A DNA stretch of 41,280 bases from a virus. The translations under genes were made by a program, and so were the position numbers. The notes beneath the pieces were generated by a model, which ran no database searches, was not told where the DNA came from, and saw only the letters and a program-made list of their open reading frames with translations. Shown here in pieces: positions 1 to 27,873 of the stretch (the first letter of the stretch is position 1; each line of letters opens with the position of its first letter). The stretch spans positions 1 to 41,280 of IMG/VR virus record IMGVR_UViG_3300012532_000215; one strand, given 5' to 3'.

Positions 1-26
1 GGAGTTCCTAGCCATTGGATCGTCAT
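1..26 (-). CDS. Start of a truncated gene with W-L-G N-terminus (partial)
   Basis: Only the first eight or nine codons are inside the window (MTIQWLGT, continuing off the left edge). A good Shine-Dalgarno, GGAGAAGAACGAG, lies directly upstream of the ATG at 26. The N-terminus closely resembles the protein starting at 6122 (MSIQWIGLGQ) and carries the W-[L/I]-G motif of the neighbouring membrane proteins. It is probably another member of that virion-protein set. Confidence 0.55.
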
Positions 27-39
27 CTCGTTCTTCTCC

Positions 40-834
40 TCAACATGTTGTCGGGCACTCAGGCAAGAGCTCGACGGTCATCGCGCCGGCGACGCGCCCG
101 TAGATCGCTCGCGCAAATGTCGCCAAGAAGCGGTCCTCGGGACGGAGCGCACCCGGATCCGCGATGACCGCGACCTGTCGGTTAGTAGGGTCCGGTTGGT
201 GAACGCTCGCGTAGAAAACGAGATTATAGGGGCCGGGGATCAACTGGTGGAGCCTCCACTCTGTATTGTCCCACGGAAAGCGGATGTCTCGCCAGGTGTC
301 GAGCCAGTCCAGAGGTGAGCCCGGCGGCTGCCCCGCATTCGGCGCAACGTAGGGCAGGAGCGGCGGCGAGTAGAGCAGCGCCGTGTCGAGACCGTTCAGG
401 TTCGGGTCCGTCCCCGGCTGCTGGGCAGCGTCGTAGATGGCAGGAGCCAAGCGGTTCTGGAGGAGCCTCAGGTGCCAACTGATGTTGCCGTCGGAGAAGC
501 TCCAGAAGGGTGAAGTCACCTCAAGCTCGCTCACGATGGACGTGCAGCCGCTCATCTGCTCGCACCGGATCGTCGCCGCCTGGCGCAGGCCATGCAGGAT
601 GATCGCCTTACCCATCGGTATCTGCACGCCGCACAGGCGGATGAGGTAGCGGTTACTCTGCGCAGTCGTGGGCTCTGGGGGGACAACGACGCCAGTGTTC
701 CCCATGTCGCCGACGAAGGGGCTCGAGCCGATGCCGGCCTTGTCGGGATCGAACGACTCGCTCGCCAACTCGACGATGCTCCTACACTGCCAGCGGGCAT
801 CGTGTGCCGGCAGGATGGCGGCGGTGGCTCTCAT
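40..834 (-). CDS. Candidate virion structural protein (264 aa)
   Basis: I do not recognise the family. The ORF can be extended upstream to 945, but the ATG at 834 follows an AGGTGG-type ribosome site and lies 8 bases after the previous stop, so I chose it. The protein has no clear membrane segment. It is rich in Trp, Pro and aromatic residues (for example FPWDNTEWRL) and has a short N-terminal Ala/Ile stretch. It is the third of three similarly spaced genes (2788, 1565, 834) downstream of the Arg-rich protein. That context and the beta-rich look suggest a capsid or vertex protein, which is inference. Confidence 0.6.
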   Translation of the reverse strand: MRATAAILPAHDARWQCRSIVELASESFDPDKAGIGSSPFVGDMGNTGVVVPPEPTTAQSNRYLIRLCGVQIPMGKAIILHGLRQAATIRCEQMSGCTSIVSELEVTSPFWSFSDGNISWHLRLLQNRLAPAIYDAAQQPGTDPNLNGLDTALLYSPPLLPYVAPNAGQPPGSPLDWLDTWRDIRFPWDNTEWRLHQLIPGPYNLVFYASVHQPDPTNRQVAVIADPGALRPEDRFLATFARAIYGRVAGAMTVELLPECPTTC

Positions 835-842
835 GGCCCCAC

Positions 843-1565
843 CTAGAAGCAGCAGTCTATTTCGCGCGCAGCTAGGGCTACCAGTGCCTCGTCGAGAGAG
901 CAGTCGTAGCGCCTCGGCAGCGAGACCGCGTGAAGAGAGATGCACACGTTGTAGGGAATCTCATCGGCAGCAAGTGCCCGAAGGAGCGTGAACGTTGCCG
1001 AGATAGTGCTCGCGCAGCCGAGCACGAAACCGACGGGGCATACGCATTCGAACACCATCTCGATGTTCTCGAGCGGCGTCGGGTCGGCAGAAATGACGTA
1101 GTTCCAGTAGCTTTTGACAATCAGCGTAAAATCGACGTTCGGGTTCAGCTTGTTGAAGTGGTCTGACTGCGCCTTGAAGATCGAGCCCGCGAAGGCGTTC
1201 GGTCGACGCACCGTGTAGGTGATCTTCCGGACCCAGAGGTCTCGGCTGATGACGCCCGCGAGCTGAGCCGAGATGGTCTTACCCGCGGTGCCACTCACGA
1301 AGGAAGCGCAGAGATTGATGATCTCCCACGCCCAAGGACAGTCGGGGATCGTGAGCACCGGCGACAGGCGCGGGACGAGCGCGCCGACACCCAGGTTCTG
1401 AAGCTCAGGAACCTTTGGCCCGACCAGGGCATACGCGAGCTTTGGGTCAGCGAGCGCGACCTCCCCGAAGGTGACTCCTCCGGGAAGGCGCAGGCTCCTG
1501 AGCTCCGAGCCCGAGAGATGGCGGGGAACCAGCTCTACAGGCTCGTCTTTGATCTTGTCGCTCAT
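843..1565 (-). CDS. Candidate virion structural protein (240 aa)
   Basis: Unrecognised family. It starts with ATG at 1565, 8 bases after the stop of the previous gene, and is followed after 8 bases by the next gene. The N-terminal third is polar and Leu/Pro-rich. The centre (around residues 120-200) alternates hydrophobic and polar residues, as in a beta-sandwich, with segments such as VRKITYTVRR and FTLIVKSYWNYVI. The last 50 residues are Cys-containing and end in DCCF. Position between two other structural candidates suggests a capsid component; a jelly-roll fold is possible but not demonstrable by eye. Confidence 0.6.
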   Translation of the reverse strand: MSDKIKDEPVELVPRHLSGSELRSLRLPGGVTFGEVALADPKLAYALVGPKVPELQNLGVGALVPRLSPVLTIPDCPWAWEIINLCASFVSGTAGKTISAQLAGVISRDLWVRKITYTVRRPNAFAGSIFKAQSDHFNKLNPNVDFTLIVKSYWNYVISADPTPLENIEMVFECVCPVGFVLGCASTISATFTLLRALAADEIPYNVCISLHAVSLPRRYDCSLDEALVALAAREIDCCF

Positions 1566-1573
1566 GCTTCACT

Positions 1574-2788
1574 TTAGTCGCGTGCACTCGCTCCAGCGAT
1601 CCCGGCTAGCATGCGGAACCTGTCAGGATCCGTCTTGTTGTCCATCTTTTGCACGAGTCCACCGAGGTAGGGGTTACCAGCGAGAAACTCAGCGCCCGTG
1701 GGGCATGCGCACGCGAAGCGGTAGATGGCCTCCAGGCAGGCGGCCGGAGCGAGCTCGTAGCCGAACGCCTTGATGCCGATGGTGATCTTCCCTCCGGGGA
1801 AGGTGATGACACCCGGACCGCAGCCGTCATTGACTGCCGCACCGGTGAAGCACGACGAGGGGTTTGTCGCCGTGCAGTCCTCTTTTCCGGTCGTCGCCGC
1901 CGCACGCATCTGCTCGAAGAAAGCGTTGTTGTTTGCGAAGGGCACGAAGGAGATGCCGAGCGAGGTGAAGGGGAGAACCGGAATCGGCTGCACAAACCTG
2001 AACATGTTGGGCGCACGCCCCATGAAGTTCGTGTGGCCGAAGGTCGCTCCTGCTTGCGGAGGAGGAGCGCAGATCGATGCGGGCACTCCGTCCGCCCCCG
2101 TCGTCACGATCGTATTGACCGGTAGGAACTGGCAGTTCAGGTCGTTGTTGAGGGCCGAGTCGTTTGCCTCTCGGATGAAAGGCATCGCCGAGACCTGCGA
2201 GCATCCAGCGCCCTCGAAATGAGGCGCCATCTGACACATGCCGATGTCGGAGAGGGGCAGGTCCAGGAGCTGCCAGCGGCGATTGATGATGAACTGGAAA
2301 TTGTAAGCCCGGAAGAGCGCCTCGATGAACCTCCACGTGGGGCTGCCGAACTCGAACACAGCCGGAGTCTGACCCGGCTGCGCAATCGCACCGAGATCGC
2401 AACCAGTCCCACAAGCACCGACTACCTGCGGGGTAGCCGTCGCGTCTGCAGGGCAGTCAACGACGACGCCGCTCTTTGAGAAGCCTACGCCCTCGCCGAC
2501 TGCAACGACGCAGATGCCGCACATGAGAAATGGCGCACCTAGATTGGCGACGAGCGATGCGCTCGTGAAGCGGCCTGGACACTCTCCGACTGGAGTGTCG
2601 ATGTTGAAGAAGTTGATCTGCCCACCAAATTGCGCGTCGAACTGTTTGTTCGAGAGCGGTAGACAAACGGTCGTGACGTCCCAGATGTCGCTGGGGATGC
2701 GCGTGACGCCGACCTGATCGATCGCCTGGAGTTGACCAATTCTGGAAAAATCAATCGGAATCGCCTTCAATTGCTGTGCTCGTGACAT
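1574..2788 (-). CDS. Candidate major capsid protein (404 aa)
   Basis: Unrecognised family. The start at ATG 2788 (MSRAQQLKAI) is preceded by a very strong, purine-rich ribosome site (GGAAGAGAAAAA), the best in this part of the window, suggesting high expression. The protein is Cys-, Gly- and Phe-rich with no transmembrane segment. It contains long beta-like stretches and many Cys residues (for example GACGTGCDLG) that could form disulfides. High predicted expression, size and its place between the Arg-rich core-like protein and two other structural candidates make it the best guess for a major capsid protein. This is inference only. Confidence 0.55.
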   Translation of the reverse strand: MSRAQQLKAIPIDFSRIGQLQAIDQVGVTRIPSDIWDVTTVCLPLSNKQFDAQFGGQINFFNIDTPVGECPGRFTSASLVANLGAPFLMCGICVVAVGEGVGFSKSGVVVDCPADATATPQVVGACGTGCDLGAIAQPGQTPAVFEFGSPTWRFIEALFRAYNFQFIINRRWQLLDLPLSDIGMCQMAPHFEGAGCSQVSAMPFIREANDSALNNDLNCQFLPVNTIVTTGADGVPASICAPPPQAGATFGHTNFMGRAPNMFRFVQPIPVLPFTSLGISFVPFANNNAFFEQMRAAATTGKEDCTATNPSSCFTGAAVNDGCGPGVITFPGGKITIGIKAFGYELAPAACLEAIYRFACACPTGAEFLAGNPYLGGLVQKMDNKTDPDRFRMLAGIAGASARD

Positions 2789-2858
2789 TTTTTCTCTTCC
2801 TTTTTTCGAGGCAAGGACTAACCCTGTCCCGAAGATTTTGTTACTCTTTCGACCGTTC

Positions 2859-4640
2859 TTACTCTTCCTCGCGGAACATGCTGTACATACCGCTCGCCGA
2901 GCCGTTGCTCGGAGCACCGGCAAGACCTGCGACAGTTACCATGGATGACGAAGGAGGAATGACGAGCGGCGCCGGAACGACCGGACCTGGTACCGGCGCT
3001 ACCGGCACCAAGACGGGCGACTGAGCAATCGGCACGCAGTGCCCAAGCGTCGGATCCCATACGGTGCCTGGGACACAGAGGTTTGGGCGACCTGACGGTA
3101 CCGATCCCTCGAGTGCCCGGCACATGGCATACGGCAAGACGACGGTGTTGCCGGGTGCCCAGTAACCGGGCGGGTTCAAGGCATCAATCTGCGCGACATC
3201 GACGCCATAACCTGCGGCAAGCTCATTGACTGAAGGATCGGTGGGTTGGACAACGTACTGACAGCGACGAGCGACCATGTCGGGACAATCGCCGCAGAGC
3301 GTGAGGTCTGGACAATTTGACCAACACCCATCGTGACCGCCACAAATCCCGCAATCGCCCAAGCGCCCGGTCTGGACAAGTACAGGTTGACCAACTTGTC
3401 CTCTACTCGGCTCAGCCGCCTGGGCTTGCGATTTTCCCGAGTACCCGTTGCCTCGACGACCAAGGGTGTAGACGGGACCGGTCGGGGAAACCGGAAGAAC
3501 CGGCATGATGGTCGGAGTCGCTGCCTGATTGGCCGCCAGATTGGTCTCGGAAGCCCAATTGTCGAAGAGACTGTCGACCATGTCCTGCACGCTCTTCTGC
3601 TCGAGGGGGTACATCCGGTTTGCAAGCGTTGCCTCGTTGCCAGCATCCACCTTGAGGGCCATCGGCATCACCCACCAGGTGACCAATTGCTTGGTCAAGT
3701 TGGCGAAGAAGCCGATCGCAGTGCCACCGAGGAGCCACGGCAGAATAGCTCTGCCGCGTACAGCGTATGCGAGTGCGATAGCGCCGACACCGCCAGCCGC
3801 CTGAGCGCCGAGGCGCCAGGCGTCAGGTCGATGATTCTGCGCTGCTGCGGCATTGGCGCCGTACCACGGATTGTTTCCATTCGTGGGTTTTCGCGTCGCG
3901 ACGTATCGATCGAGACCGTCGGCGATGACGAGGCCAAGACCCACGCCCATACCCGCCATGCCGAAGGCGCGGACCGCGGAGACAGTGAATACCTGATTCT
4001 CCATCAGACTCTCATATCCGTCATCCGGATTCTCGAGCAGTCCGAGCGAATCGCGGCGACGATGCTTGAAACGCATTCCTGCGTTCTCGAGCATCATCTC
4101 TTCCTCACGACGACGCCTGCGGCGCGGAGCTGCGCGACGGCGACGGCGACGAGTCGCACGCCTGCCGCGCTGGGTCTCCTCAATGATGATCGGCTGACTC
4201 GACCGACGTACCCGAACGAGCCTCACTCCTCCTTGACGGGATGCGGTGCGAGCTGCAGTTCGGCGACGAGCACGAGCACGACGCCTCACGCGGCGACGCG
4301 GTGCGCGGCGACGAACAGCGCGAGCACGGCGGCGAACGGCGCGGCGACGCCTGCGACGCGGCTGCACGGGAGCTATCGCGACTGCGCGACGCCTGCGACG
4401 TCTGCGAGTCGTCCTGCGAACACCGCGAGTCTTTCGCCGTGCGGCCTGAGCCTTCTTGATGTTCCTACGTGCGGCCGCCTTTTGCTTCGCAGTTGCCATT
4501 CCTTCACCTTTCGGATTTTCCAGTAAACGTCCTGCACGCATTGCTGGAATGCGATCGACTTCCGCACCTTCTTGCGAATGCTCGTCGATTTGCTTTTTGA
4601 TTCGGAGCCATGCGCGTGTTGGCGGGAGATGCTTCGACAT
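2859..4640 (-). CDS. Arg-rich protamine-like virion protein with membrane segments and LysM-like tail (593 aa)
   Basis: The first ATG (4640) overlaps the previous stop as TAATG but has no ribosome site. An internal in-frame ATG at 4499 (MATAKQKAAA) has a strong one (AAGGTGAAGGA), so two products of 593 and 546 aa are possible. After it comes about 120 residues that are extremely Arg-rich, like a protamine or adenovirus core protein, suited to DNA condensation. The middle holds two or three hydrophobic segments (GMAGMGVGLGLVIADGL and the LPWLLGGTAIGFF region). The C-terminal part is Cys-rich, then LysM-like (YVVQPTDPSVNELAAGYGV), then Pro/Val-rich. The motif LLENP occurs twice. Function inferred: genome-condensing, membrane-linked virion protein. 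Confidence 0.7.
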   Translation of the reverse strand: MSKHLPPTRAWLRIKKQIDEHSQEGAEVDRIPAMRAGRLLENPKGEGMATAKQKAAARRNIKKAQAARRKTRGVRRTTRRRRRRRAVAIAPVQPRRRRRRAVRRRARAVRRRAPRRRVRRRARARRRTAARTASRQGGVRLVRVRRSSQPIIIEETQRGRRATRRRRRRAAPRRRRRREEEMMLENAGMRFKHRRRDSLGLLENPDDGYESLMENQVFTVSAVRAFGMAGMGVGLGLVIADGLDRYVATRKPTNGNNPWYGANAAAAQNHRPDAWRLGAQAAGGVGAIALAYAVRGRAILPWLLGGTAIGFFANLTKQLVTWWVMPMALKVDAGNEATLANRMYPLEQKSVQDMVDSLFDNWASETNLAANQAATPTIMPVLPVSPTGPVYTLGRRGNGYSGKSQAQAAEPSRGQVGQPVLVQTGRLGDCGICGGHDGCWSNCPDLTLCGDCPDMVARRCQYVVQPTDPSVNELAAGYGVDVAQIDALNPPGYWAPGNTVVLPYAMCRALEGSVPSGRPNLCVPGTVWDPTLGHCVPIAQSPVLVPVAPVPGPVVPAPLVIPPSSSMVTVAGLAGAPSNGSASGMYSMFREEE

Positions 4641-5254
4641 TATGGACGAACAAAACCTCGGCTGTCAATTACGCAACCCTCTGGCAGCGGGATGCGCCAC
4701 GCGAGAGGCTGAATGCTCGACAGCAGATCAACGGGCGCTTGGTATCGGTGCTCGAACGCTTTGTTGAAACCAAAGCGGCTGTACCGAATGAAGCGAACAC
4801 GAGCCACACGTTTCCACGGACCGCGGGGAATGTCTACAAATCCCGATCGAATCTGCGCGCTGCTGCCGAAGTAGTCCTGCGCTGCGGCGAGATCGGCGCG
4901 GTGCACATCCGACACTTCTCGGCGCCTACTAGTGCGCCAACGGACAACATAAATGTCACATTTATTAAGCAATCTGCCGCTAGCGTCGTTCACCAACACG
5001 TACGACGGGGGCAGCCGAATATCGCTCGGCATCGCCACCGGATCGAGCTTCCTCTCTCCTATGCGCCGCGCCTGCTCCGTCGAAACGAAGCTCACGTGGT
5101 CGCCGCGCACGAGCAGGTGACCGAGCTCGCACACATTGTTTTCGCACACCTCTACCTCGGCGATGCGCGGATCGGGCCCAGCGCTCTCGTCAATCTGCAA
5201 GACGCTTGCAGGATTGTCGCATTCACATTTTTCTTCTTCATTCATCGTGGACAT
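4640..5254 (-). CDS. Unknown protein (204 aa)
   Basis: Family not recognised. The ATG at 5254 gives the full length; a second in-frame ATG at 5245 makes an ATGA overlap with the previous stop and is equally likely. The N-terminal 45 residues are acidic and contain paired Cys (CECDNP, CENNVCEL). The rest is mixed alpha/beta with basic stretches (WRTSRRREVSDVHR). There is no signal peptide or membrane segment. It lies between a glycine-zipper membrane protein and the Arg-rich protein in what looks like a virion-protein operon. Confidence 0.6.
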   Translation of the reverse strand: MSTMNEEEKCECDNPASVLQIDESAGPDPRIAEVEVCENNVCELGHLLVRGDHVSFVSTEQARRIGERKLDPVAMPSDIRLPPSYVLVNDASGRLLNKCDIYVVRWRTSRRREVSDVHRADLAAAQDYFGSSAQIRSGFVDIPRGPWKRVARVRFIRYSRFGFNKAFEHRYQAPVDLLSSIQPLAWRIPLPEGCVIDSRGFVRP

Positions 5255-5664
5255 CCGATGACTGCTTCGACTCGATCAGAGAGCATGATCGTTCTGAAGC
5301 TGCCGCGCGTGAAGTGGCTTGGCGCCTTCTGCCGCAGCCGATACTTGTTCGCAGTGGTATCGATCTTGTGCGCGACGTAGCCGTTACGACGTGCCCATGC
5401 AATTGCCTCGGCGCGTGTGAACTTGTCGCGGTCGAAGAGCAGCGTTTGCACCTGCGTGCCGCGCGGACACGTGCGCCGGTTTTCGAGCAGCTCCCTCCGA
5501 CGTCGCGTGTCACCGCGTTCCGAGCCGAGCACGGCACCGATGCCTCCACCGACGAGTGCACCGGGAAAGCCGAGCAGCACTCCTCCGAGGAGCACACCGA
5601 GGCCTCCGCCGATCGCCATGTTCACTCCGCGCGTTGGGTTCTCTTCGTACTTTTGTTTGGGCAT
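5242..5664 (-). CDS. Glycine-zipper membrane protein (140 aa)
   Basis: The ATG at 5664 (MPKQKYEENP) has a strong ribosome site (GAGGAGATAGAG) and lies just downstream of the solitary CRISPR-like hairpin at 5693-5728. Residues 14-50 form a long Gly-rich hydrophobic hairpin (MAIGGGLGVLLGGVLLGF, then ALVGGGIGAVLG) typical of glycine-zipper membrane proteins. A basic segment with LLENR follows, then a soluble C-terminal domain of about 80 residues that contains DRDKFTRAEAIAWARRNGY. Probably a virion membrane protein given its neighbours; family unknown. Confidence 0.65.
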   Translation of the reverse strand: MPKQKYEENPTRGVNMAIGGGLGVLLGGVLLGFPGALVGGGIGAVLGSERGDTRRRRELLENRRTCPRGTQVQTLLFDRDKFTRAEAIAWARRNGYVAHKIDTTANKYRLRQKAPSHFTRGSFRTIMLSDRVEAVIGCPR

Positions 5665-5692
5665 CTCTATCTCCTCGCGATCACGTAACCAA

Positions 5693-5728
5693 GTCTCGAC
5701 TTCTGTGGGCGTCGAGCTGCCGTTGCTT
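5693..5728 (-). repeat. Solitary CRISPR-repeat-like hairpin
   Basis: This is a near copy of the array repeat in an intergenic gap, 2 bases after the stop of the 6122-5730 gene and about 12 bases before the ribosome site of the next gene. The stem is CTCGAC/GTCGAG, a compensatory variant of the array stem CTCGGC/GCCGAG, with a conserved 10-base loop. It has the same orientation as the array (RNA sense on minus). Confidence 0.85.
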
Positions 5729-5729
5729 T

Positions 5730-6122
5730 TCATCTTTTTGCGACAGCATAACCAAAAATGACACCGATGACCGCAGCGAGTACCGCCACGGGAATTATCG
5801 ATGAGCCGGCAACTTGCTCGTCGCACAGGGGTACTCTGTCCACAGTTTCGGCCATCTTCTCTCGGTTGCCAAAATATCCGCCTTCGATGGCGTTGCACTG
5901 CGCCTCGTCCAAGTACGGACCGTTGGCCGCTCCCGCGCAACTGTCGGCGCGACGCCCCCAGCACGAAGGAAGCGCTGCGATACCTGCACGCAGAAGCTCT
6001 GCGCGCTCTGCCGCCGAAAGCTTGGCGGCGAATTGATCGATCTGCGCCGCCGTCATCGCCCGAAATGTTTCGTGACTTGGAAGAGTGGGCGTCTGACCGA
6101 GCCCTATCCATTGGATGCTCAT
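5730..6122 (-). CDS. Small C-terminally anchored virion-like protein with W-I-G motif (130 aa)
   Basis: Starts with ATG at 6122 overlapping the previous stop. The N-terminus MSIQWIGLGQ carries the motif shared with four neighbouring proteins. The body is Ala-rich and helical (residues 20-50), with four Cys around residues 54-82 (SCWGRRADSC, EAQCNAIEGG). The C-terminus is one membrane helix (IIPVAVLAAVIGVIFGYAVA) ending in AKR. Such a tail-anchored protein fits a membrane-associated virion component. Family not recognised. Confidence 0.65.
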   Translation of the reverse strand: MSIQWIGLGQTPTLPSHETFRAMTAAQIDQFAAKLSAAERAELLRAGIAALPSCWGRRADSCAGAANGPYLDEAQCNAIEGGYFGNREKMAETVDRVPLCDEQVAGSSIIPVAVLAAVIGVIFGYAVAKR

Positions 6123-6964
6123 CGTCGCCTCACGTCGTCAGGATTGTCGAGCAAGCGCGCCGTCGCGAGTGTTCCTCCTCCGCGCCGACTCACGAGCTGC
6201 GCAACGATGTAGAGGGCGAGGAGTCCGACCGCGACGAAGCCGACGGTGCGAATGGTTTTCGGAATCTCCGACTTGCCCGCGGTCGCCTCTGCGGCGCGCG
6301 CTTCGTGCACCTGAGCCGCGCCCTCATAGATCGAATCGGTCATCTGCTTGACCTGCTCGGGTGTGGCGCCCTGCTCGATCTGCTTTACCTGGTTGCTCGA
6401 TATGGTCTCGAACGTCTTTTGCTCGGCGACATTTTCTACGGTCTCGCAGATCGCTTCGACGGCGAAGTACACTGTCACGGCGGCCGCGACGATTGCGAGA
6501 CCGATGATGATCGGCGGCAATATGCCGATTGTACCCGTCACTTTTACGGGTTGGTTCGTCGCGTTCTCTATCTCGACCGGTCTTCCTCCGATGACCTCTA
6601 CTCGAGAAAAATCCCCGTCAACCCTCTCGAACGCGAGAGCTCCGCTCTGGTCAGTGCCGAAGCGCCTCTTGCCCGCGAGCGCCTCGTCCGCGAACCTCGT
6701 CAGCGTCGCGACCATCGAGCCGAGCTCCTTGAAGTCCTGATCGAGGCCACTGTCCCATGCTCCGGTGCGCACCGCGCCCTCGCCTGGATCAACAATGAAC
6801 GGCAAGCCAAGCCTCTCGCGGACGTTCTTCAGGGCAGTTCGCGCACCCGCGGCCCTCGTGAAGGCGTCGCTCACGCCATCGCGAATGGATCGAATGTACG
6901 TTTCCCACGCCATCGCGTTGGGCGCCGCGGCCTGACCGAGCCACTCAGGGGAGATTTTCGACAT
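6119..6964 (-). CDS. Two-span membrane protein with W-L-G-Q motif and LLDNP tail (281 aa)
   Basis: The start MSKISPEWLGQA places the WLGQ motif at residues 8-11. Two hydrophobic segments are visible: PPIIIGLAIVAAAVTVYFAV near residue 155 and VGFVAVGLLALYIVAQLV near residue 245. Between them is a helical, Gln/Glu-rich region. The C-terminus ends in ARLLDNPDDVRRR, which matches LLENPDD in the Arg-rich protein. The gene overlaps both neighbours by a few bases, so it belongs to the same operon. Probable virion membrane protein; family unknown. Confidence 0.65.
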   Translation of the reverse strand: MSKISPEWLGQAAAPNAMAWETYIRSIRDGVSDAFTRAAGARTALKNVRERLGLPFIVDPGEGAVRTGAWDSGLDQDFKELGSMVATLTRFADEALAGKRRFGTDQSGALAFERVDGDFSRVEVIGGRPVEIENATNQPVKVTGTIGILPPIIIGLAIVAAAVTVYFAVEAICETVENVAEQKTFETISSNQVKQIEQGATPEQVKQMTDSIYEGAAQVHEARAAEATAGKSEIPKTIRTVGFVAVGLLALYIVAQLVSRRGGGTLATARLLDNPDDVRRR

Positions 6965-7145
6965 ATCGCTTGCTCCGGATGATTTGAAAGAGGAGGAAGG
7001 ATGCGTTCACGAGCACGCCGACGAAGAGGATCTTCTCGCTCCTCGTCCAGCCGTCTGATCGCGGCTGAGTTTCCACGACGCTCGGTAGAATATCATCTTC
7101 CGTGCCGGCCCCTTGACCGAGCCAAGTTACGCGAGAAGAAGCCAT
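6945..7145 (-). CDS. Small single-span membrane protein with W-L-G-Q motif (66 aa)
   Basis: The reading frame is open to 7385, but the ATG at 7145 (MASSRVTWLGQG) gives an N-terminus like its neighbours and overlaps the preceding gene by 19 bases. WLGQ sits at residues 8-11. An acidic stretch follows, then one membrane helix (KILFVGVLVNASFLLFQII) and a short basic tail. The start choice rests on the shared motif and on gene packing. Confidence 0.6.
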   Translation of the reverse strand: MASSRVTWLGQGAGTEDDILPSVVETQPRSDGWTRSEKILFVGVLVNASFLLFQIIRSKRYVENLP

Positions 7146-7843
7146 GCGACTCCTGCCGCGATTGCGACACCGATGAAGACTGGCAACGCAGAAGACTTCT
7201 TCGGCTGTGACGGGTAGCGAGCAATAATCTCTGCTCCGCGTCCGCTCTCCGCCGCGGCGATGCGCTTTAGCTGCGCCTGCAGCTGTTCGTCTGTCTCGAT
7301 GCCCCAGGTATAGCCCTTGCCCTGAGGCAGGTGGTATTTTGAATGGAGTGCGGCGGCCTCTTGCTGCGCGGCGAAGCTGCCACAAGAGTAGCTGCCGCCA
7401 ATGACCCTGTTGTAGACGCAGTCGTGAAGCACTTTTTCATCGTAGGTACCGCACTTGGGACCGGCACCGCCCTGCTTCACGCGGAGCTCACACAAACGAT
7501 AGCCTGCCTTGAGCGTCTGCACGCCAACGGCCACATCTCGGTTGATGCGATCGAGGTTCTTGCGCGTAGCTTCGTTACTGCCAAAAAAGCTATCTGCCAG
7601 ATCGTAAAAAATGCCGCCGACCCACTCACCTACGGCTTGGCACCAACCTAATTGGGCTGCCGCTTCCGTAGCCCCATAAGTTACCTCGGCCGCTGCATGG
7701 CAGGCGGCTGTACCGGCCGCTCCACCAACAGCTTGCGCATTCTCGCGTGTTGGCGGCCACTCAGCGTGCTGTGCTTCCTCATACGCCGCTTGTCCCGCGG
7801 CGTCCTCGGGGGACTGCTGCGCTTGCCCGAGCCAGGTAATCAC
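7127..7843 (-). CDS. Ala-rich virion-like protein with W-L-G-Q motif and C-terminal anchor (238 aa)
   Basis: I chose the GTG at 7843 because it forms a GTGA overlap with the peptidase gene, has a GGGGGAAG ribosome site and gives MITWLGQAQQ, matching the other proteins; an upstream TTG at 7870 is the alternative. The protein is Ala/Gln-rich, with a Cys-containing centre (KCGTYDEKVLHDC, GSYSCGSF). The C-terminus is one membrane helix (ALPVFIGVAIAAGVAWLLLA) with no tail behind it. A virion membrane protein is likely; family unknown. Confidence 0.65.
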   Translation of the reverse strand: MITWLGQAQQSPEDAAGQAAYEEAQHAEWPPTRENAQAVGGAAGTAACHAAAEVTYGATEAAAQLGWCQAVGEWVGGIFYDLADSFFGSNEATRKNLDRINRDVAVGVQTLKAGYRLCELRVKQGGAGPKCGTYDEKVLHDCVYNRVIGGSYSCGSFAAQQEAAALHSKYHLPQGKGYTWGIETDEQLQAQLKRIAAAESGRGAEIIARYPSQPKKSSALPVFIGVAIAAGVAWLLLA

Positions 7844-8991
7844 GGCCGCTTCCCCCAGCTTATCCACCAAATCTCCCTACCGCTGTGGGGAACTCCATCA
7901 ACGCCGACAAATAAACCCTTTTCGACGAAGCCCTCGCGATCAGGATCAATGCTGGCAGGATTGCTCAAGCACGAGGTCTCGTCACACACGACCTTGACGT
8001 TCGGCACTGATAGGAGACGCTCGCGCGTGAAACGCTCACATTTGCCGAGTGGAAAATCTGTTGATGGGTCGGCATACTGCCACTGGTCGGCGATGCGCAC
8101 TGCAGCGAGCACGTGCTGGATGTTCTTCTGCGTGTTGTAGGCGTGGCCGACGACCATCGTATTTAAACCTACTGAGAGGAAGCTCGACGCGAGCAGAACG
8201 ACCAAATCGTCACAATTTGCAACAGTGACATCGCACTCAGGCAAGTACACGCGGTGGTCTGACGTCTGGATGTCGCAGCACAATGTCAGCACAGTCGCCC
8301 GTTCAATTCGCTCAACGTGCACTCCATCTGGCTCACGTCGCATCGTCTGCGATGACGTGTGCGGCAGCGTCGCGACGTGCGGCTGCGACAGCACCATCCC
8401 CACCTCCAAATCAGTAACCGCTATTCGGCGCTCTTCTTCTCCTTCACGAACGTAGACTTTGTGATTATTGGTGAGGCGCAATTTCGAATCATTTGAGAGA
8501 TGAACGACATCAACGGCGAGGCTACCCTTAGTGACGACGGCTTCAACCACGGTCCAAGAATTCAGTCCCCAAATTCTGTCCTGTGCTCGAAGGCCTCGCA
8601 TGCGAACCAGGATGGGGGCTTCTCCCTTGCACTCCTTGAGAACAAGCGTCTCTTCCGGGAAGCAGTCACCACCGTGGAAGCACGGCGCATCCTTGTCCGT
8701 GCACGCAGTGAGATGCGCGCCGGCGATAAACTCGGTGCCGACAGGATCTGGAACCCAGAGCTTCTTCTGCACGGCGCCAAGCAGCGCCTCTGCTCGACCG
8801 CGCTCATTACCAACCTTTTTACCGCTCCGCCGAGCGCGCTCAAGGCATTCGATTGCCCACGCACGGACCCGCGGGTCAGCTCCTCCCTTGGCTGCCTTGT
8901 CGGCGACAGCATCGAGCGAGCTTCGAACGCCCTGCTCGCCGTACGGGTGTTCTCGCCTCTCGATTTTCGGCTTCCAGTCGGGCGCGGCCAC
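7840..8991 (-). CDS. Transglutaminase-like cysteine peptidase interrupted by a mini-intein (383 aa precursor)
   Basis: The N-extein (1-109) ends in CFHGGD and the C-extein starts CDDLVVLLASSFLSVG, so splicing would create GGDCDD, the catalytic-Cys motif of transglutaminase-like peptidases. The likely His (QHVLAAV) and Asp (QYADPS) follow at normal spacing. Residues 110-259 are a Hint/intein domain. The spliced enzyme would be about 233 aa. The start is a GTG at 8991 without a clear nearby ribosome site (AAGGAG is about 30 bases upstream). Neighbours are small virion-like membrane proteins, so a role in particle maturation or cell-wall entry is plausible. That role is inference; the fold and intein are supported by motifs. 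Confidence 0.8.
   Translation of the reverse strand: MAAPDWKPKIERREHPYGEQGVRSSLDAVADKAAKGGADPRVRAWAIECLERARRSGKKVGNERGRAEALLGAVQKKLWVPDPVGTEFIAGAHLTACTDKDAPCFHGGDCFPEETLVLKECKGEAPILVRMRGLRAQDRIWGLNSWTVVEAVVTKGSLAVDVVHLSNDSKLRLTNNHKVYVREGEEERRIAVTDLEVGMVLSQPHVATLPHTSSQTMRREPDGVHVERIERATVLTLCCDIQTSDHRVYLPECDVTVANCDDLVVLLASSFLSVGLNTMVVGHAYNTQKNIQHVLAAVRIADQWQYADPSTDFPLGKCERFTRERLLSVPNVKVVCDETSCLSNPASIDPDREGFVEKGLFVGVDGVPHSGREIWWISWGKRP
8215..8664 (-). other. Mini-intein (150 aa), inserted directly before the catalytic Cys
   Basis: The segment begins with Cys (CFPEETLVL, block A) and has a block B-like LTNNHKVYV with the T-x-x-H signature. It has LCCDIQTSDHRVYL near the end (block F-like) and finishes ...TVAN followed by Cys, the expected N|C splice junction. 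The usual penultimate His is Ala. There is no room for a homing endonuclease. Block assignments are by eye. Confidence 0.75.
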
Positions 8992-9025: not shown

Positions 9026-10606
9026 TTAAGTCTCGATTTCCGTAGGCATCGAGCTGCCTTTTTCCGGTTCAATTACTTCAACTTGTGGCGTGGACGGCTC
9101 TACAGAAGCAGGAGGAGTCTGAACGATTTCCTCGATCGGCACCTTCCTGAAGGCCTCCCACGGGTGCACGTACGGCGTCGGTTCCGCGGCTGGTGGTGGA
9201 GGCGGTGGCCGCTCCCATGTTCGCTGTGGAGTCGCTGCAGGAGCAGGCGGAGGCTCCCATGCCCGCTGCTGAGAAGGCGCTGCCTCCCAAGGATGCGCTG
9301 CGATGGGCCTGCGCTGCGGTTCGGGCGGCAGTGCTCTCTGTTGCTGTTGCTGCCTATGTCTCTCTGCAGCGGCCTCGGCGCGCTCCATGAGTTCGACCTG
9401 CTCGCGCATGCTCTTGGTTCGATTCGTCCCGACTTTGTCGAAGACCTCTCCGACCTTGTCGAGAAAGCCATCGAGCATGCCCTTGTACTTGTCGATGTTG
9501 TAGAGCGTCGGTGCGCTCACTTCGCCATCAACCGCCATGAGTCTCAGCGGTCCGATGTCCTTGAACTTCGCGGGGAAGTCCGGGTCACCAGGAGGAGGTG
9601 GCGGCTCAGCATCAGGAGTTCCCCCACCGACGTGCTGGGCGATGTCGTGTGTGAACGCGTGCACACCGCGAACGATCGAGCTCATCTCCGTCAGCTGCTC
9701 GAGCGGACTCTTCGGCGGCGGGGGCGGTGGTGGTGGCTCTGGAGGCGGTGGCGGCGCGTAGTACTGAGGAGGATAGGAAGCGGCTAACCTCATCTGATCG
9801 AGCTGGTAGCGGTATTCGACGTTCTGCCGCATGAGCTCTTGCAGCATCGTCGCGAGCGTCGGATCGATGCCTGCAGGTATCTGCATGGGCATGGCAGGAG
9901 GTTGCGGTTGTGGTGCAGGCATCGGTTGCGGCTGATGGTACTGCGGCGCAGGCTGTGGCTGATGGTAGTAACCAGGCGCGCCCTGGTAGCCATAGCCAGG
10001 CATCGGTCCTCCCTGGTAGCCGTAGCCATTTGGCGGCCATCCTCCCTGGGGCGGTTGACCTCGGCGCATGTCGTCCTCCTGATTTTTTTGGGCAGCAAAT
10101 TTGATCGTGCCGGTGCCCCAAGACGGCAGCTGGTCGTCGAAGATCGTCCACTTGTACTCGGCCTTGTCGCCCTTCCAATGATTGTCACGGACATAGGCGA
10201 CGAGCGCGCCGTAATCTCTCAGAGCCGACACGGGGTGCTCGGGGATTCCTTCATGCTCCTCAGGCTTGATCTGCTTGATGCGCACGTAGGCATTCGGGTG
10301 AAAGCGCGTAATCTGCATGTAGCGCGTCGCATAGTCCGCGTTCCAGTTCACTCGCGCGACTCCGCCAGTCTTGAGCGACATCACCCTGTTGTGCTCAGCG
10401 ACTAGCCGCGAGCTCTCAGCATCGAGAGGCATCTCCCTCGCTTCCTCCTCGGAAATTTCGGCTTCTGTGAGAGGGTTACCGAACGAGTCAACCGGCGTAC
10501 CCTCGACAAAGAGTCGAGCTGGGTCGACGGCCTTGCCCTCCGTGCCGACCCTGTAGGGCCTTCTCGGCTTGCGCTTCGGCTTCTTTGCTTCGCCGTTCTC
10601 GGACAT
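9026..10606 (-). CDS. Pro/Gln-rich scaffold-like protein (526 aa)
   Basis: Not recognised. Residues 1-30 are Lys/Arg-rich. Residues 70-165 form a compact globular domain (with YMQITRFHPNAYVRIKQIKP). Residues 170-230 are Gly/Tyr/Gln/Pro-rich low complexity (GYGYQGG, QPQP repeats). Helical segments flank proline runs, and the C-terminal 120 residues are Pro/Glu-rich with poly-Gln. The last residues are encoded by a solitary CRISPR-like repeat. The mix of disordered and coiled regions suggests a scaffold or linker in the virion operon, which is inference. It starts 7 bases after the preceding stop. Confidence 0.65.
   Translation of the reverse strand: MSENGEAKKPKRKPRRPYRVGTEGKAVDPARLFVEGTPVDSFGNPLTEAEISEEEAREMPLDAESSRLVAEHNRVMSLKTGGVARVNWNADYATRYMQITRFHPNAYVRIKQIKPEEHEGIPEHPVSALRDYGALVAYVRDNHWKGDKAEYKWTIFDDQLPSWGTGTIKFAAQKNQEDDMRRGQPPQGGWPPNGYGYQGGPMPGYGYQGAPGYYHQPQPAPQYHQPQPMPAPQPQPPAMPMQIPAGIDPTLATMLQELMRQNVEYRYQLDQMRLAASYPPQYYAPPPPPEPPPPPPPPKSPLEQLTEMSSIVRGVHAFTHDIAQHVGGGTPDAEPPPPPGDPDFPAKFKDIGPLRLMAVDGEVSAPTLYNIDKYKGMLDGFLDKVGEVFDKVGTNRTKSMREQVELMERAEAAAERHRQQQQQRALPPEPQRRPIAAHPWEAAPSQQRAWEPPPAPAATPQRTWERPPPPPPAAEPTPYVHPWEAFRKVPIEEIVQTPPASVEPSTPQVEVIEPEKGSSMPTEIET
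9030..9065 (-). repeat. Solitary CRISPR-repeat-like hairpin at a gene end
   Basis: Stem CTCGAT/ATCGAG with the conserved loop and the following GCTGCCTTT arm, in array orientation. It forms the last codons of the Pro-rich gene (SSMPTEIET then TAA) and is followed by AAGGAG in the minus RNA. The stem differs from the array repeat at both partner positions, so pairing is kept. Confidence 0.85.
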
Positions 10607-11678: not shown

Positions 11679-12155
11679 CTAGTGCCTCATGCGCTGAGTG
11701 ATTTTGAACTCTTCGTCGTCGGGGAGCGAGGCCATACGATCTGTGTCCCGGTCTCGGCTTCCATAGGCGCCGAGCTGCCTTTGAAGGGGTTTGAAGCGAA
11801 GAAAGACCCTCTTGCGACTGCGCAACGCTTCCTCCTCCTCGGGCGTCGACAAGGTCGACACAGCGAGCTTCTGCGTCCGCCGCGTCCTATCGACGAGCTT
11901 CTGGTAGAGTGTCATCCGCACCTTGGGCGTCTGTCGACGAGGGTCCCGCGTCACGTCGTCAAATTGGTCGACAAGTCGCACGAAGCGCGCGCGGTCCCAC
12001 CCCGAGGCGTACCAGACCCCGAGCAGCCAGGATGCGGTTGGTAGAGCAATAATAAGGACGATGATCCATTCATTCACAAAGAAATTGCTGACACATGTTT
12101 TTCGAGCCGGCTCGGAGCCGAAGTAGTAGCCGATCCTACATTCAACTTTCGTCAA
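11679..12155 (-). CDS. Single-span membrane protein whose C-terminus contains a repeat element (158 aa)
   Basis: The longest frame starts at a TTG (12155); a GTG further in, just before NEWIIVLIIALPTASWLL, may be the true start. One membrane helix (WIIVLIIALPTASWLLGVWY) is followed by a basic, helical cytoplasmic-type region. Residues about 123-135 are encoded by a solitary CRISPR-like repeat. Behind the repeat, an internal ATG opens MASLPDDEEFKITQRMRH, so a shorter product is possible. The layout resembles an inner-membrane spanin, but no lipoprotein partner is adjacent. Function unknown. Confidence 0.5.
   Translation of the reverse strand: MTKVECRIGYYFGSEPARKTCVSNFFVNEWIIVLIIALPTASWLLGVWYASGWDRARFVRLVDQFDDVTRDPRRQTPKVRMTLYQKLVDRTRRTQKLAVSTLSTPEEEEALRSRKRVFLRFKPLQRQLGAYGSRDRDTDRMASLPDDEEFKITQRMRH
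11751..11786 (-). repeat. Solitary CRISPR-repeat-like hairpin inside a gene
   Basis: Stem CTCGGC/GCCGAG exactly as in the array, loop variant TTCCATAGGC, followed by GCTGCCTTT. It lies in frame near the 3' end of the membrane-protein gene and is read as QRQLGAYGSRD. Array orientation. Confidence 0.85.
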
Positions 12156-12373: not shown

Positions 12374-12670
12374 ATGACGAGCGACGACGATCTTGTCCAA
12401 CACGCAGAACGCGCAGTGGTCGAAGCCGCGGTTGAGTGGGCGAGAGAGCAGAAGATGTCGGCGCCAGCGGTACAGACTCCCGCAGCGTCGAAGCTCCGCA
12501 CGGCCTGCTACATGTTGTACCGCGCGCGCACTATCACGGGCAGGGTACGGCAGGATGAGATCGAGCGTGCGATGGCAGAAAGCGTCTCGACTTCCATAGG
12601 CGTCGAGCAGCCTTTGCACCTTAACGAACCTTGCGCGACTATTTCTGAAAAAAGGCGCGCCAATCGGTAA
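12374..12670 (+). CDS. Lone plus-strand gene, small helical protein (98 aa)
   Basis: Starts at ATG 12374 (MTSDDDLVQHAERAVVEAAV). The protein is acidic and amphipathic with helices such as TPAASKLRTACYMLYRARTI and VRQDEIERAMAESV, which looks like a real coding product. No ribosome site is obvious. The last 30 residues run through a solitary repeat read in antisense and overlap the end of the convergent cupin-like gene by 32 bases. It is the only convincing + strand gene seen. Function unknown; a regulator is possible. Confidence 0.5.
   Translation: MTSDDDLVQHAERAVVEAAVEWAREQKMSAPAVQTPAASKLRTACYMLYRARTITGRVRQDEIERAMAESVSTSIGVEQPLHLNEPCATISEKRRANR
12584..12619 (-). repeat. Solitary CRISPR-repeat-like hairpin downstream of the cupin-like gene
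   Basis: Stem CTCGAC/GTCGAG, loop TTCCATAGGC, then a GCAGCCTTT arm. Array orientation; 20 bases downstream (in minus sense) of the cupin-like gene's stop and inside the 3' part of the plus-strand gene. Confidence 0.85.
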
Positions 12671-14564: not shown

Positions 14565-17306
14565 TTAGCGACTCGAAGCGTCGGCGGGATTCGTTCCAGC
14601 CGTTACCTCATCATCATCAAGCACACCATCGGCGTCTCTGTCGATGCCGCGGCGCACGCCTTCACCCAAAGGCATGCATGTGAACGTGTGCGGCTCAGCT
14701 GCAGCGCGCTCGCGGATCTTCGCATCAGTGACCTGAGCGTCACTTGACCTATCTGACTTAAACAGGCCAGAGCCGAGGTAGACGTAGCCGCGCTTGCTCG
14801 TCTTGACGATGAGCTCGCATTCGTGAGCGTCGGCGCGCTGCTCTAGTAGTGTAGCACGTGCCCCAGTCACGGATTGGTTCATGCCAAGCGTTACTTGCTG
14901 GCCAACGATGGGCGCGTGGTTGCTATCGAAGGCGAACATGAAATCGACGACCTGTCGACGTTGCTCGTCGCCTGTCTCACCAGGAGGAAAACCTCCAGGA
15001 TTATCGGGCGTCTGGTCGAACCCTGTTGCTGTCACGAATCGAAATTCCGAATCGGCTTCCCCAGAGTGACCGAACCCAAATCCTCGAATTTGGTCTCCCT
15101 TGAAGCCGAGATCGGTCGGACGAAAGCCGGGATGAAAGGCAAGGCCAAACATTCCGACTTTCTGGTATTGGTTTCGCAGATGCGGCGTCTTGAAGAGGTC
15201 TGGCTCATTTGAGAAACTCATCGTGCCGTCGGTTCCAAAGAAACCGGGGAACTGCGTGAAACCCGCGTTGGCCTGCGGATCGAGCTTGTGACAACCCACA
15301 CATGTAAGCTGGTCAGGCGATTGAGTGATGGTGAAGAACACCTCGCGCCCCAGTGCCTGCGTCGGCGTGAGGGAATTGTCGAGGCGTCGGATTGGATTCG
15401 GCGGGTACATGATCTGCAGCGCGAAGTCCGTATACGCTTGCATCTGCTGCTCGGAGATGGGCTCGCTCCTTCCAAGCAAGCTGCCGAACGCTGGCCGAAA
15501 CTTCTTGAACCCGGCAACCTCATCAAACGCACCATCGTCCGGTTGTGCGCTCGGCTCGGCGAGACTTCCGGTACGATCTCCGCGCCAGTGCATCGGGCCA
15601 TGGTTCGCCATACCGCGAAGGCTCTGTGTGTTCATGGGTCCCTTCATCGGGTGAAACAGGGGCGGCAGCACCCGAGAGCCTGTGACTGGATTCTCATTCG
15701 GTACGACGTCGCCGTCGGGATTACCGAGATCCCACGACGTCGCATCGAAATCACCAAACACGTGACAGCTTGCGCATGCCGAGTCACCGTGACTCGAGGT
15801 CGTTCTCGCATCGTAGTTAAAACTACGGCCCTCGACGATGCTCGCCGGCTCGGGGTTATGCATGAGCATCTTACTCACTTCGCGCTTTGCTTGCGCATCA
15901 ACGATCGCGATGCCGTTGTCGAAGCGCGTGAGGACGTACAATCTGTTCTTGGCCTCATCGAGCACGACACCAGTAGGTCCGCCGCCACTCACCTCGATCT
16001 GGTTGGAAGCGTTCGGAACGAATGTGTCGGCCTCGAGCTCGGCCGTTGAAAACACGCCGACTTTGCTCGAACCGAGCGCGGCAACGTACAATGTCGAGCC
16101 GTTGGAGCTCACGGCCATCGATTGAGGAAAAGCTAGACTCTTCTCGCTCTCGTCATTCGGAACCGGAGCGCAGCAGTGCGAGTAGTCGATGTGCTTATTC
16201 AAGTGCCGCGGCCGGACGTCTCCGGCGCCATCGAGCACGGTGATGCGGCTCTCATGGAGATGGCCGCGAAGGCTGTGGCCGGCGAAGATTCCCGGGCCCT
16301 CGAAGCGTGCGCGGTTATTGGCGTCCGTGTTCGACACGTACACTCGACCGCTCACCGGGTTCACCGCCATATTGAAGAGCACGGTGCCGACCCCGCTGAA
16401 GGTGCCAGCTGGAGCCGGCAGCAGAGCTGGCGGCGAAGCCGTGGCATCTAGCACGAACACGTCTTTATCTGGCAAAAAGAAGCGCACGGACTGGTCGTAG
16501 GTGGTGCCGAGCTCGTCGATCCAATGCTGACCGTCCCAGCCGACGATGAGCGAATTCGGCGCCGCTGGTGTTCCTTCATGATTGGTCGCCGGTGGCGGGT
16601 AAGTGAAGAAGGCCTGCAGCGCGTTGATGACCGTGGTCTGGTTGCCGGTCATGTACCCGGCGGCATATACCCTGCTGCCATCAGGAGAAACAGCGAGCGA
16701 ACGGGGCTTGTCGGTGAACAAGTTCACGATGGCGACGGGATTACCTCCGAGCGACGAGCCGAGGTTATTTGCGTCGAACACCCAGACGTCGGCTCGTCCA
16801 ACCCCGGGCGTGCTGAGCGCGGGATCAATCGGAGCATTCTGCCCGCGGTGTGCCGCCGTGATGAATGCACGATTGCTGGCGAAGACGACATCACGCGGCT
16901 CATCGCCGACGAGCAGCGTGCGCTCGACGCGCAGGTAGCCGTCAAGCCTGACGACGCTGACACTGTCAGAGAGCTCGTTGACGACCCACACCTCCTCATT
17001 TGACCTGACGTTCACCGCTACCGGCTCCAAGCCAACGGCGAGCGAGCGCCAATAGGCGAGGCCATCGCTCTTGACCTTGAAGATCTCGAGCTGGTTGTCC
17101 GGCGTATTCACGGCGAAGAGAAGTAGCCCGTTTGGAGAAAGGGCAAGAGGTCTCACCTGATCGGACTCGAACAAGGAAAAATCCCGAGCTGCGAACAACG
17201 CGGCGCTCTTCTCTCCTGGCTCGGCTATTTTATCATCGCGTTCAGATGAGCATGCGAAGAGAGTCGCGAAAAAGAGAATCATCAATTTCCACTTGTGTTT
17301 TTGCAT
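14565..17306 (-). CDS. Diheme cytochrome c lipoprotein with beta-propeller (913 aa)
   Basis: Residues 1-20 are a lipoprotein signal (KLMILFFATLFACSS, lipobox Cys 19), so the protein should be exported and lipid-anchored. Residues about 50-490 show YVTN/WD-type propeller repeats (LALSPNGLLLFAVN, LAVSPDGSRVYAAG, MAVSSNGSTLYVAALG). Two c-type heme motifs follow, CASCH at 511-515 and CVGCH at 669-673, in a region like MauG/cytochrome c peroxidase proteins. The C-terminus has an acidic Asp-rich stretch (DRDADGVLDDDE) resembling calcium-binding repeats. Its ATG overlaps the previous stop by one base and it ends in a strong terminator. Highly unusual in a phage; likely host-derived. Substrate unknown. 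Confidence 0.88.
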   Translation of the reverse strand: MQKHKWKLMILFFATLFACSSERDDKIAEPGEKSAALFAARDFSLFESDQVRPLALSPNGLLLFAVNTPDNQLEIFKVKSDGLAYWRSLAVGLEPVAVNVRSNEEVWVVNELSDSVSVVRLDGYLRVERTLLVGDEPRDVVFASNRAFITAAHRGQNAPIDPALSTPGVGRADVWVFDANNLGSSLGGNPVAIVNLFTDKPRSLAVSPDGSRVYAAGYMTGNQTTVINALQAFFTYPPPATNHEGTPAAPNSLIVGWDGQHWIDELGTTYDQSVRFFLPDKDVFVLDATASPPALLPAPAGTFSGVGTVLFNMAVNPVSGRVYVSNTDANNRARFEGPGIFAGHSLRGHLHESRITVLDGAGDVRPRHLNKHIDYSHCCAPVPNDESEKSLAFPQSMAVSSNGSTLYVAALGSSKVGVFSTAELEADTFVPNASNQIEVSGGGPTGVVLDEAKNRLYVLTRFDNGIAIVDAQAKREVSKMLMHNPEPASIVEGRSFNYDARTTSSHGDSACASCHVFGDFDATSWDLGNPDGDVVPNENPVTGSRVLPPLFHPMKGPMNTQSLRGMANHGPMHWRGDRTGSLAEPSAQPDDGAFDEVAGFKKFRPAFGSLLGRSEPISEQQMQAYTDFALQIMYPPNPIRRLDNSLTPTQALGREVFFTITQSPDQLTCVGCHKLDPQANAGFTQFPGFFGTDGTMSFSNEPDLFKTPHLRNQYQKVGMFGLAFHPGFRPTDLGFKGDQIRGFGFGHSGEADSEFRFVTATGFDQTPDNPGGFPPGETGDEQRRQVVDFMFAFDSNHAPIVGQQVTLGMNQSVTGARATLLEQRADAHECELIVKTSKRGYVYLGSGLFKSDRSSDAQVTDAKIRERAAAEPHTFTCMPLGEGVRRGIDRDADGVLDDDEVTAGTNPADASSR

Positions 17307-17973: not shown

Positions 17974-18009
17974 CGATGAAGGCAGCTCGATGCCTAAAGA
18001 AATCGAGAC
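17974..18009 (+). repeat. Solitary CRISPR-repeat-like hairpin, inverted orientation
   Basis: The only copy with the crRNA sense on the + strand. Perfect stem CTCGAT/ATCGAG, loop GCCTAAAGAA, preceded by AAGGCAG. It lies in the 48-base gap between two minus-strand genes. A minus transcript through it would be complementary to the array repeat RNA and could act as an anti-repeat. Confidence 0.75.
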
Positions 18010-18014: not shown

Positions 18015-18596
18015 TCATCCGATCCTCCTCGATGAAACAACAGGTTCCTGGTGAACGGAGATGCCTGGTATCTGAATTTTGCCGTCCGAGTTACGTACCG
18101 CGTCCACGATCTTCGCCATGTCCGGCATCAAGAACTGCCGGGGAATGAGCGACGCATCAGTCACGGTCGCGACCCACATGTAGCGAATCGAGACGCCACG
18201 CGGGGCCTCGACATGTGAAACTGCGGCGAGCGCGGTCGAGGCTTCTACCGGCGTTGCGGCTGCGGCAGCGGTGGCGATGGCCCGATCGTTGTCGAGCTGC
18301 TTCTGCTCCAGGTATCCTGCGATGCGCCTCTTGAGAGTCTTCTCGGCGTCCTCGAGCGCGGTCTTCATGGGGCGAAACATGTCGTTCACCTGCTTGAGCG
18401 CTGCGTTCAGGGGCTTTGTAATCGCGGTACGCTTCGCTTCGATGGTGTTGAGCTGCTCCTTCACCCATCGCAACCCCTCGGCGGCGAACTCCTGATCCAG
18501 GTCACACGTGATGGGTAGATCGCGCGTCATCTGCAGAGCGTCACGATTAGACTCGAACTCGGTCGTCGCGGTCTTTGCCAGAACAATGGCTTCCAT
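18015..18596 (-). CDS. Coiled-coil phage protein (193 aa)
   Basis: Starts at ATG 18596 (MEAIVLAKTATTEFESNRDA). Residues 35-100 form a long charged helix (VKEQLNTIEAKRTAITKPLN, then ALEDAEKTLKRRIAGYLEQK), a pattern I associate with phage proteins near replication or recombination genes. An Ala-rich linker follows, then a small beta-rich C-terminal domain (SIRYMWVATVTDASLIPRQF and GISVHQE). Specific function unknown; it follows the resolvase directly. Confidence 0.65.
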   Translation of the reverse strand: MEAIVLAKTATTEFESNRDALQMTRDLPITCDLDQEFAAEGLRWVKEQLNTIEAKRTAITKPLNAALKQVNDMFRPMKTALEDAEKTLKRRIAGYLEQKQLDNDRAIATAAAAATPVEASTALAAVSHVEAPRGVSIRYMWVATVTDASLIPRQFLMPDMAKIVDAVRNSDGKIQIPGISVHQEPVVSSRRIG

Positions 18597-26459: not shown

Positions 26460-26535
26460 CACTTCGGCGCGTGGCGGTCGGGGCAGGGGCAGGACTGCTG
26501 CTTCATTCTTGAATGGCGGCGTGAAAGACTACTGC

Positions 26536-27859: not shown

Positions 27860-27873
27860 CGTTTTCTCTCCCT

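Follow-up and report, generated by a model that had tools for sequence, protein, structure and literature searches.

A conserved N-terminal W-L-G-Q tag on otherwise unrelated proteins of a little-known virus and its distant relative, a candidate docking signal for membrane-anchored cargo

Short terminal peptides load unrelated cargo in bacterial microcompartments (encapsulation peptides) and in encapsulins (cargo peptides). We describe here a short N-terminal peptide, the tag, which is built on W-[LI]-G and shared by otherwise unrelated proteins of the linear virus record IMGVR_UViG_3300012532_000215 (41,280 nucleotides; this whole stretch of DNA is the window) and of one distant relative. The microcompartment and encapsulin peptides differ from it in being neither viral nor tied to membrane anchors. 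The host of this little-known virus is probably a bacterium; how membrane-containing phages select proteins for the particle is, in our view, poorly known. WLGQ as a whole word did not occur in the open-access literature that we searched, outside which most subscription papers lie, and the titles and abstract openings listed from it in searches for N-terminal tags of membrane phages showed none.

Among the closest described systems is the capsid targeting sequence (CTS) of phage T4, a 10- to 20-residue N-terminal peptide of internal proteins that gp21 later cleaves off (excerpts of PMC3012670, PMC9958956, and PMC5694885); its conservation is stated, in the excerpt of PMC9958956, for IPII and IPIII only. 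The tag appears to resemble the T4 CTS in logic, as a short N-terminal peptide common to otherwise diverse proteins (here 16 starts in two viruses, whose virion location we infer), but the two are unlike in sequence. Moreover, T4 cargo lies in a tailed head, within the scaffold core, and loses its peptide to gp21, whereas most cargo here has a C-terminal hydrophobic stretch and tag-like copies are also found internally. T4-type head genes (portal, terminase, and prohead protease) were not found among the proteins scanned from these two fragment records. Because of this, and because cleavage is only putative and most cargo appears to be membrane anchored, we do not class the tag as a T4-type CTS.

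In the tectiviruses PRD1 and PR772, P16 uses a transmembrane helix to fasten the vertex complex to the membrane, and PRD1 P7 is a lytic transglycosylase (excerpts of PMC6750898 and PMC10589892). The likeness to our locus would lie in a P16-type tie between vertex complex and membrane and in transglycosylase-like cargo; in contrast, those excerpts mention no shared N-terminal tag for the tectivirus membrane proteins P16 and P7, and tblastn of five window proteins against the phage collection gave no match. Phage SSIP-1 is icosahedral, with an internal membrane and two types of capsid protein (excerpt of PMC6356626). Its gp34, annotated as a structural protein and bearing a C-terminal hydrophobic stretch (mean, 1.68), is the sole phage match of a peptidase encoded by the relative; however, tags do not cluster in SSIP-1 (of its 268 frames, 1 has W[LI]G and 0 the longer tag), and our capsid candidates have no convincing match there.

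The tag and its conservation

A preliminary description of this DNA, made from its letters alone, had reported a shared motif at five protein starts (positions 26, 6122, 6964, 7145, and 7843). All five are as it stated, on the minus strand: W-[LI]-G lies at most 16 residues from the start in four complete window proteins and in one that is cut by the window edge (Table 1; gene starts and gene lists are our own choices). The four complete genes overlap one another and follow, on its downstream side, a peptidase gene split by an intein (7840-8991). The pattern is real, conserved, at the level of protein, and wider than the window alone reveals.

The distant relative, IMGVR_UViG_3300005844_000040 (G001; L011, L013-L015; 43,599 bases), was the one contig hit when P-D-P-x-G-T-E-[FY]-I of the peptidase was searched for as a degenerate DNA pattern. 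It shares gene order with the window, a capsid-like protein (46% identity; E, 1.3e-99), a basic protein (62%), a 240-amino-acid protein (57%), and the peptidase, which an intein interrupts at the identical position. The motif search in relatives that the preliminary description had proposed found tag starts kept in four homologues, one of them opposite the truncated window gene, and in further genes among the 16 called in the relative past the cut end of the window.

Of the 46 called window genes (a list in which we left one wrong-frame call with an internal stop, 35246-36690), 5 have W[LI]G among their first 16 residues, and 20,000 residue shuffles reached at most 4, once. That the motif is a product of chance or of a reader's pattern finding draws some support from a blind scan of 14 virion-side window genes, in a reduced alphabet, for whatever 3-mer they might share: at least five genes shared one in 658 of 20,000 shuffles (3.3%). 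Thus, on its own the window makes only a moderate case, and independent data were needed. Such data came from the 16 genes of the relative beyond the cut (2 of them on the opposite strand), none of which matches the window by tblastn at an E of 0.01. Five of these held-out genes begin with a W[LI]G peptide (MVEWLGQ, MAIQWLGS, MNLTWLGA, MITWLGQ, and MGSRVEWLGQ), while 50,000 shuffles gave at most 3, once; two more begin with H-L-G-Q (MHAYAHLGQ and MHVYSHLGQ). This test settles that the tag is real, and with the control phages it leaves chance next to no credence. Counted near any start in frames of at least 60 amino acids, W[LI]G occurs in 6 of 252 frames of the window and 12 of 272 of the relative; two control phages gave 1 of 198 (MW202816) and 1 of 268 (SSIP-1), and three other contigs gave 0 of 34 (L003), 1 of 30 (L004), and 0 of 54 (L020); a tag pattern had fetched L003 and L004.

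Over the 16 starts (5 in the window and 11 in the relative), the consensus is [IV]-[QTE]-[WH]-[LI]-G-[mostly Q], preceded by 3 to 8 residues before the W or H. That central residue is W in 14 starts and H in 2; two positions earlier stands I or V in 12, and directly before it Q, T, or E in 14. Next comes L (15 starts) or I (1), then G, and then Q in 10 of the 16, with S, T, A, R, or L in the others; the residues after the tag are commonly small ones. The codons vary synonymously (GGT, GGC, GGG, and GGA; CAA and CAG; CTC, CTA, and CTT), which argues that the peptide, not the DNA, is shared, and we therefore rejected a DNA element. As the preliminary description had held, the tagged proteins are otherwise unrelated: with the first 18 residues removed, the matches at E < 0.01 among the 15 complete proteins are three orthologue pairs between window and relative, so that paralogy was also rejected; three weak pairs lie within the relative (E, 0.014 to 0.086).

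The tag need not be terminal, since LGQ recurs at residues 111, 248 (as VQWLGQ), and 407 of a 628-amino-acid protein of the relative (G001 26474-28360). These internal copies, the tight overlap of the genes, and an LGQ-x-x-L-[RK]-S-P sequence common to proteins 26474 and 30969 of the relative would suit a cassette seam, that is, a functionless leftover of an ancestral gene start or of a recombination junction at which cargo was fused. We consider this improbable, because the peptide has been kept despite synonymous codon variation and is retained in distant orthologues.

All four capsid candidates (window 843-1565 and 1574-2788; L014 8424-9719 and 9764-10480) have [LIF]-G-[QE] in the first 35 residues; these sequences (FGE, IGQ, LGQ, and LGQ) resemble the core of the tag without its W.

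Further searches yielded no third member. The capsid-candidate, peptidase, and primase proteins alone brought up no related loci; alignment searches found the relative again and nothing else, genome contigs gave nothing, and a plasmid search gave no match. The start-tag pattern hit nine viral contigs, which we rejected as chance because the frames from the matched ATG span 1 to 54 codons, and two contigs from a further pattern were judged unrelated. Weak tblastn matches linked the window primase to a phage (E, 3e-3) and the capsid candidate of the relative to phage tailspikes (E, 0.1 to 0.8). The window DNA polymerase resembles that of MW202816.1 (L001; 29% identity over 97%). This record has replication genes in common with the window but carries a tailed-phage annotation and was rejected as a relative; the resemblance suggests that replication genes have been exchanged.

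Cargo, C-terminal anchors, and a possible docking role

The complete tagged proteins of the window have no convincing match in Pfam or PHROGs. Tagged proteins of the relative, however, gave Pfam matches to a CAP domain (residues 31-157; 4.4e-26) and an M23 peptidase domain (32-128; 5.7e-18), both above the cut-off, and to SLT (34-87; 1.3e-3), where 18.7 bits fall below the cut-off of 21.3. The transglycosylase-like protein also has tblastn matches in 302 phage records, several annotated as lytic transglycosylase; among the 20 matches listed of the 302, the match starts at residues 8 to 28, so that the tag would lie largely in front of the enzyme. By eye, further tagged cargo seems to include Cys-rich and Pro-rich proteins.

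Membrane helices had been noted in the four complete window proteins, and each indeed has a hydrophobic stretch in its last 45 residues (17-residue Kyte-Doolittle mean, 2.28 to 2.56). At a cut-off of 1.6 (Kyte-Doolittle mean), 4 of 4 tagged but 0 of 8 untagged window proteins have such a C-terminal stretch (P = 0.002), as do 8 of 11 tagged and 4 of 15 untagged proteins of the relative (P = 0.045). The N-terminal ends differ: within the first 35 residues, the Kyte-Doolittle maximum over 12 residues is ≤1.39 in the 15 complete tagged proteins and ≤0.91 in 14 of them, and an N-terminal hydrophobic core of the kind found in a Sec signal peptide or lipobox protein was seen in none of the 15. Together with the C-terminal stretch in most of them, and with the need for peptidoglycan-acting enzymes to end up outside the cytoplasm, this could mean that the tag is a membrane-insertion or translocation signal, read by a host or viral insertion machinery that sets the topology of proteins without a signal peptide. 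We regard this as rather unlikely: the tag is short and would be too weakly hydrophobic for a Sec signal, tagged protein 30969 has no helix, and untagged protein 32451 has a C-terminal one.

We favor a short N-terminal docking, or sorting, tag for virion proteins that are mostly anchored at the C terminus, and give it a probability of roughly one-half. The C-terminal helix would sit in the viral membrane and the tag would bind one common virion component, for which the inner capsid face and the vertex complex are the likeliest candidates; with a helix at one end and a tag at the other, the cargo would be fixed at both. The diverse middle parts, cell-wall-cutting enzymes among them, would then be cargo that serves the passage of the virus through the cell envelope. 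We infer here the presence of the proteins in the virion, the internal membrane, the common receptor, and the retention of the tag. A more specific version, somewhat less probable and put forward tentatively, is a two-ended loading code in which N-terminal [IV]x[WH]LGQ plus a C-terminal helix recruits exchangeable cargo to the membrane side of the capsid; with similar reserve, this code might mark an undescribed lineage of membrane-containing phages whose cargo includes CAP, M23 endopeptidase, and transglycosylase-like proteins.

Several points weigh against docking. Three of the 11 tagged proteins of the relative miss the C-terminal cut-off, namely, 19189 (helices further in), 30969 (none), and 31412 (1.36), and four untagged ones, including 32451, pass it; since three tagged genes are shared by descent and there is one relative, the two association tests are not independent. 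AlphaFold models of the two capsid candidates were unusable (mean predicted local distance difference test scores, 29 and 39), the match of SSIP-1 gp34 to the peptidase is weak (E, 0.02), and three virion-side protein pairs, compared as profiles with 21 selected SSIP-1 proteins, reached probabilities of ≤1.2%.

On that profile comparison we rejected capsid homology to SSIP-1; nor did the capsid candidates match a PDB sequence at E values up to 1. Pfam and PHROG scans of a subset of frames from the two fragment records identified no terminase, portal, tail, or known capsid family among the window and relative proteins scanned, and no PRD1-lineage packaging ATPase was found among them. The missing terminase, portal, and tail hits among the proteins scanned, and the peptidase match to a structural protein of an internal-membrane phage, count in favor of docking. 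With SSIP-1 capsid homology not found and structure prediction unsuccessful, the setting that we favor, a tailless virion that has an internal membrane, is unproven.

The neighboring peptidase and candidate processing motifs

The preliminary description had read the tag as a sorting or processing signal, perhaps cut by the adjacent peptidase. A common N-terminal peptide signal is what we find, and sorting fits it; cleavage by that peptidase lacks direct support. With its exteins joined, the window peptidase matches Transglut_core (E, 0.051; 14.3 bits versus a cut-off of 23) and a CEP76 peptidase-like family (E, 0.022; below the cut-off), and has no relevant PDB match. Across the three sequences compared with exteins joined (window, relative, and SSIP-1 gp34), C110, H143, and D158 are invariant, in a D-C-D ... 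H-V ... D-P context; we take this Cys-His-Asp set to be the catalytic residues. The peptidase of the relative, joined in the same way, found SSIP-1 gp34 alone in 50,697 phage records, and the unjoined window peptidase found no match in the phage collection. The intein occupies the same site in both viruses in different forms, of 150 residues in the window (8215-8664) and 345 in the relative, the latter with weak Hint and LAGLIDADG matches. Because it lies directly before the predicted catalytic Cys, the peptidase would be inactive until spliced.

Cleavage would work as with T4 gp21: the tag would target proteins to the assembling particle, and the neighboring peptidase would cut at or after L-G-Q. 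In window and relative alike, the peptidase gene and the first tagged gene overlap, the Cys-His-Asp set is likewise kept in both, residues after the tag are often small, and T4 offers a precedent. The residue after G varies as counted above, however, one protein of the relative has the internal tag-like copies, SSIP-1, in which the tag was not seen, has the peptidase match, and LxEN motifs offer alternative sites. We therefore judge cleavage at the tag unlikely, though less so than an insertion signal or a cassette seam. The peptidase is a plausible maturation enzyme, which gene position alone would link to the tag.

The alternative motif, [LY]-x-[EDQ]-N (often LLENP), was chosen after it had been seen. 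It occurs 9 times in 12 virion-side proteins of the window (shuffle mean, 1.3; maximum, 6 in 1,000) and 13 times in 19 of the relative (mean, 1.7; maximum, 6), and 3 times in the 4,127 residues of 8 other window proteins. The LLENP, YEENP, and LLDNP forms lie in window proteins 2859-4640, 5242-5664, 6119-6964, and 6945-7145 and in their homologues in L014. T4 and giant-phage proteases, in the excerpts that describe them, cut after Glu. We consider this motif at least equal to the tag as a processing-site candidate.

Other features of the window and implications

A clustered regularly interspaced short palindromic repeat (CRISPR) array lies at 33283-35183 (26 repeats at ≤6 mismatches), beside a 530-amino-acid effector (35246-36838, minus strand) that matches PADLOC Cas12f (2.4e-53) and Cas12u1 (1e-50) and the solved Cas12m chain 23vw_A (1.3e-29). 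Cas12m binds DNA without cutting it. Eight solitary CRISPR-repeat hairpins (≤8 of 29 mismatches) lie outside the array, mostly near gene ends or starts. Their stem compensates: 4 of 6 pairs are changed on both sides, and 98.3% of cells are paired over the 8 solitary and 2 array copies. The relative has no solitary copy at ≤8 mismatches. Perhaps the hairpins serve the phage's own Cas12m-like protein as embedded guide or processing sites. The gene at 14565-17306 (minus strand) encodes 913 amino acids with a start that looks lipoprotein-like by eye, a beta-propeller Lactonase match (1.6e-8), and a weak di-haem peroxidase match, which is unusual cargo for a phage.

Table 1. Window features and their counterparts in the relative (G001)
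Feature	Position	Strand	Details	Counterpart in G001
Truncated tagged gene, start	1-26	-	MTIQWLGT; tag W codon 14-12; runs off the window	25851-26474, syntenic; start MTQIQWLGS; hydrophobic stretch at C terminus
Tagged protein, 130 amino acids	5730-6122	-	MSIQWIGLGQ; C-terminal hydrophobic stretch; ATGA overlap with upstream gene	None between matching neighbor genes
Tagged protein, 281 amino acids	6119-6964	-	MSKISPEWLGQ; two hydrophobic stretches; C-terminal LLDNPDDVRRR	19189-20289; start MSAIQWLGQ; 63% identity without tag
Tagged protein, 66 amino acids	6945-7145	-	MASSRVTWLGQ; one hydrophobic stretch	19004-19192; start MGTVRAVTWLGQ
Tagged protein, 238 amino acids	7127-7843	-	MITWLGQ; GTG start, overlapping stop of peptidase gene; C-terminal hydrophobic stretch	18318-19025; start MITWLGRPRWLGQ
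Transglutaminase-like cysteine peptidase candidate, intein-split	7840-8991	-	Intein at about 8215-8664, directly before predicted catalytic Cys	
Untagged Pro-rich protein	9026-10606	-	Upstream of peptidase	Similar gene precedes peptidase
Untagged very basic protein, 546 amino acids	2859-4499	-	Hydrophobic stretches and LxEN motifs	62% identity
Untagged capsid candidate, 404 amino acids	1574-2788	-	Guess from size and place	46% identity
Untagged second capsid candidate, 240 amino acids	843-1565	-	Guess from size and place	57% identity
Solitary repeat hairpin	5693-5721	-		
Solitary repeat hairpin	9030-9058	-		
Solitary repeat hairpin	11751-11779	-		
Solitary repeat hairpin	12584-12612	-		
Solitary repeat hairpin	17981-18009	+		
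Solitary repeat hairpin	19048-19076	-		
Solitary repeat hairpin	27874-27902	-		
Solitary repeat hairpin	38797-38825	-		

If the docking proposal is true, sequence alone would suffice to predict virion membrane proteins, from their visible tag, and to point to envelope-penetration enzymes; the tag would also be a short handle with which chosen enzymes could be put into membrane particles.

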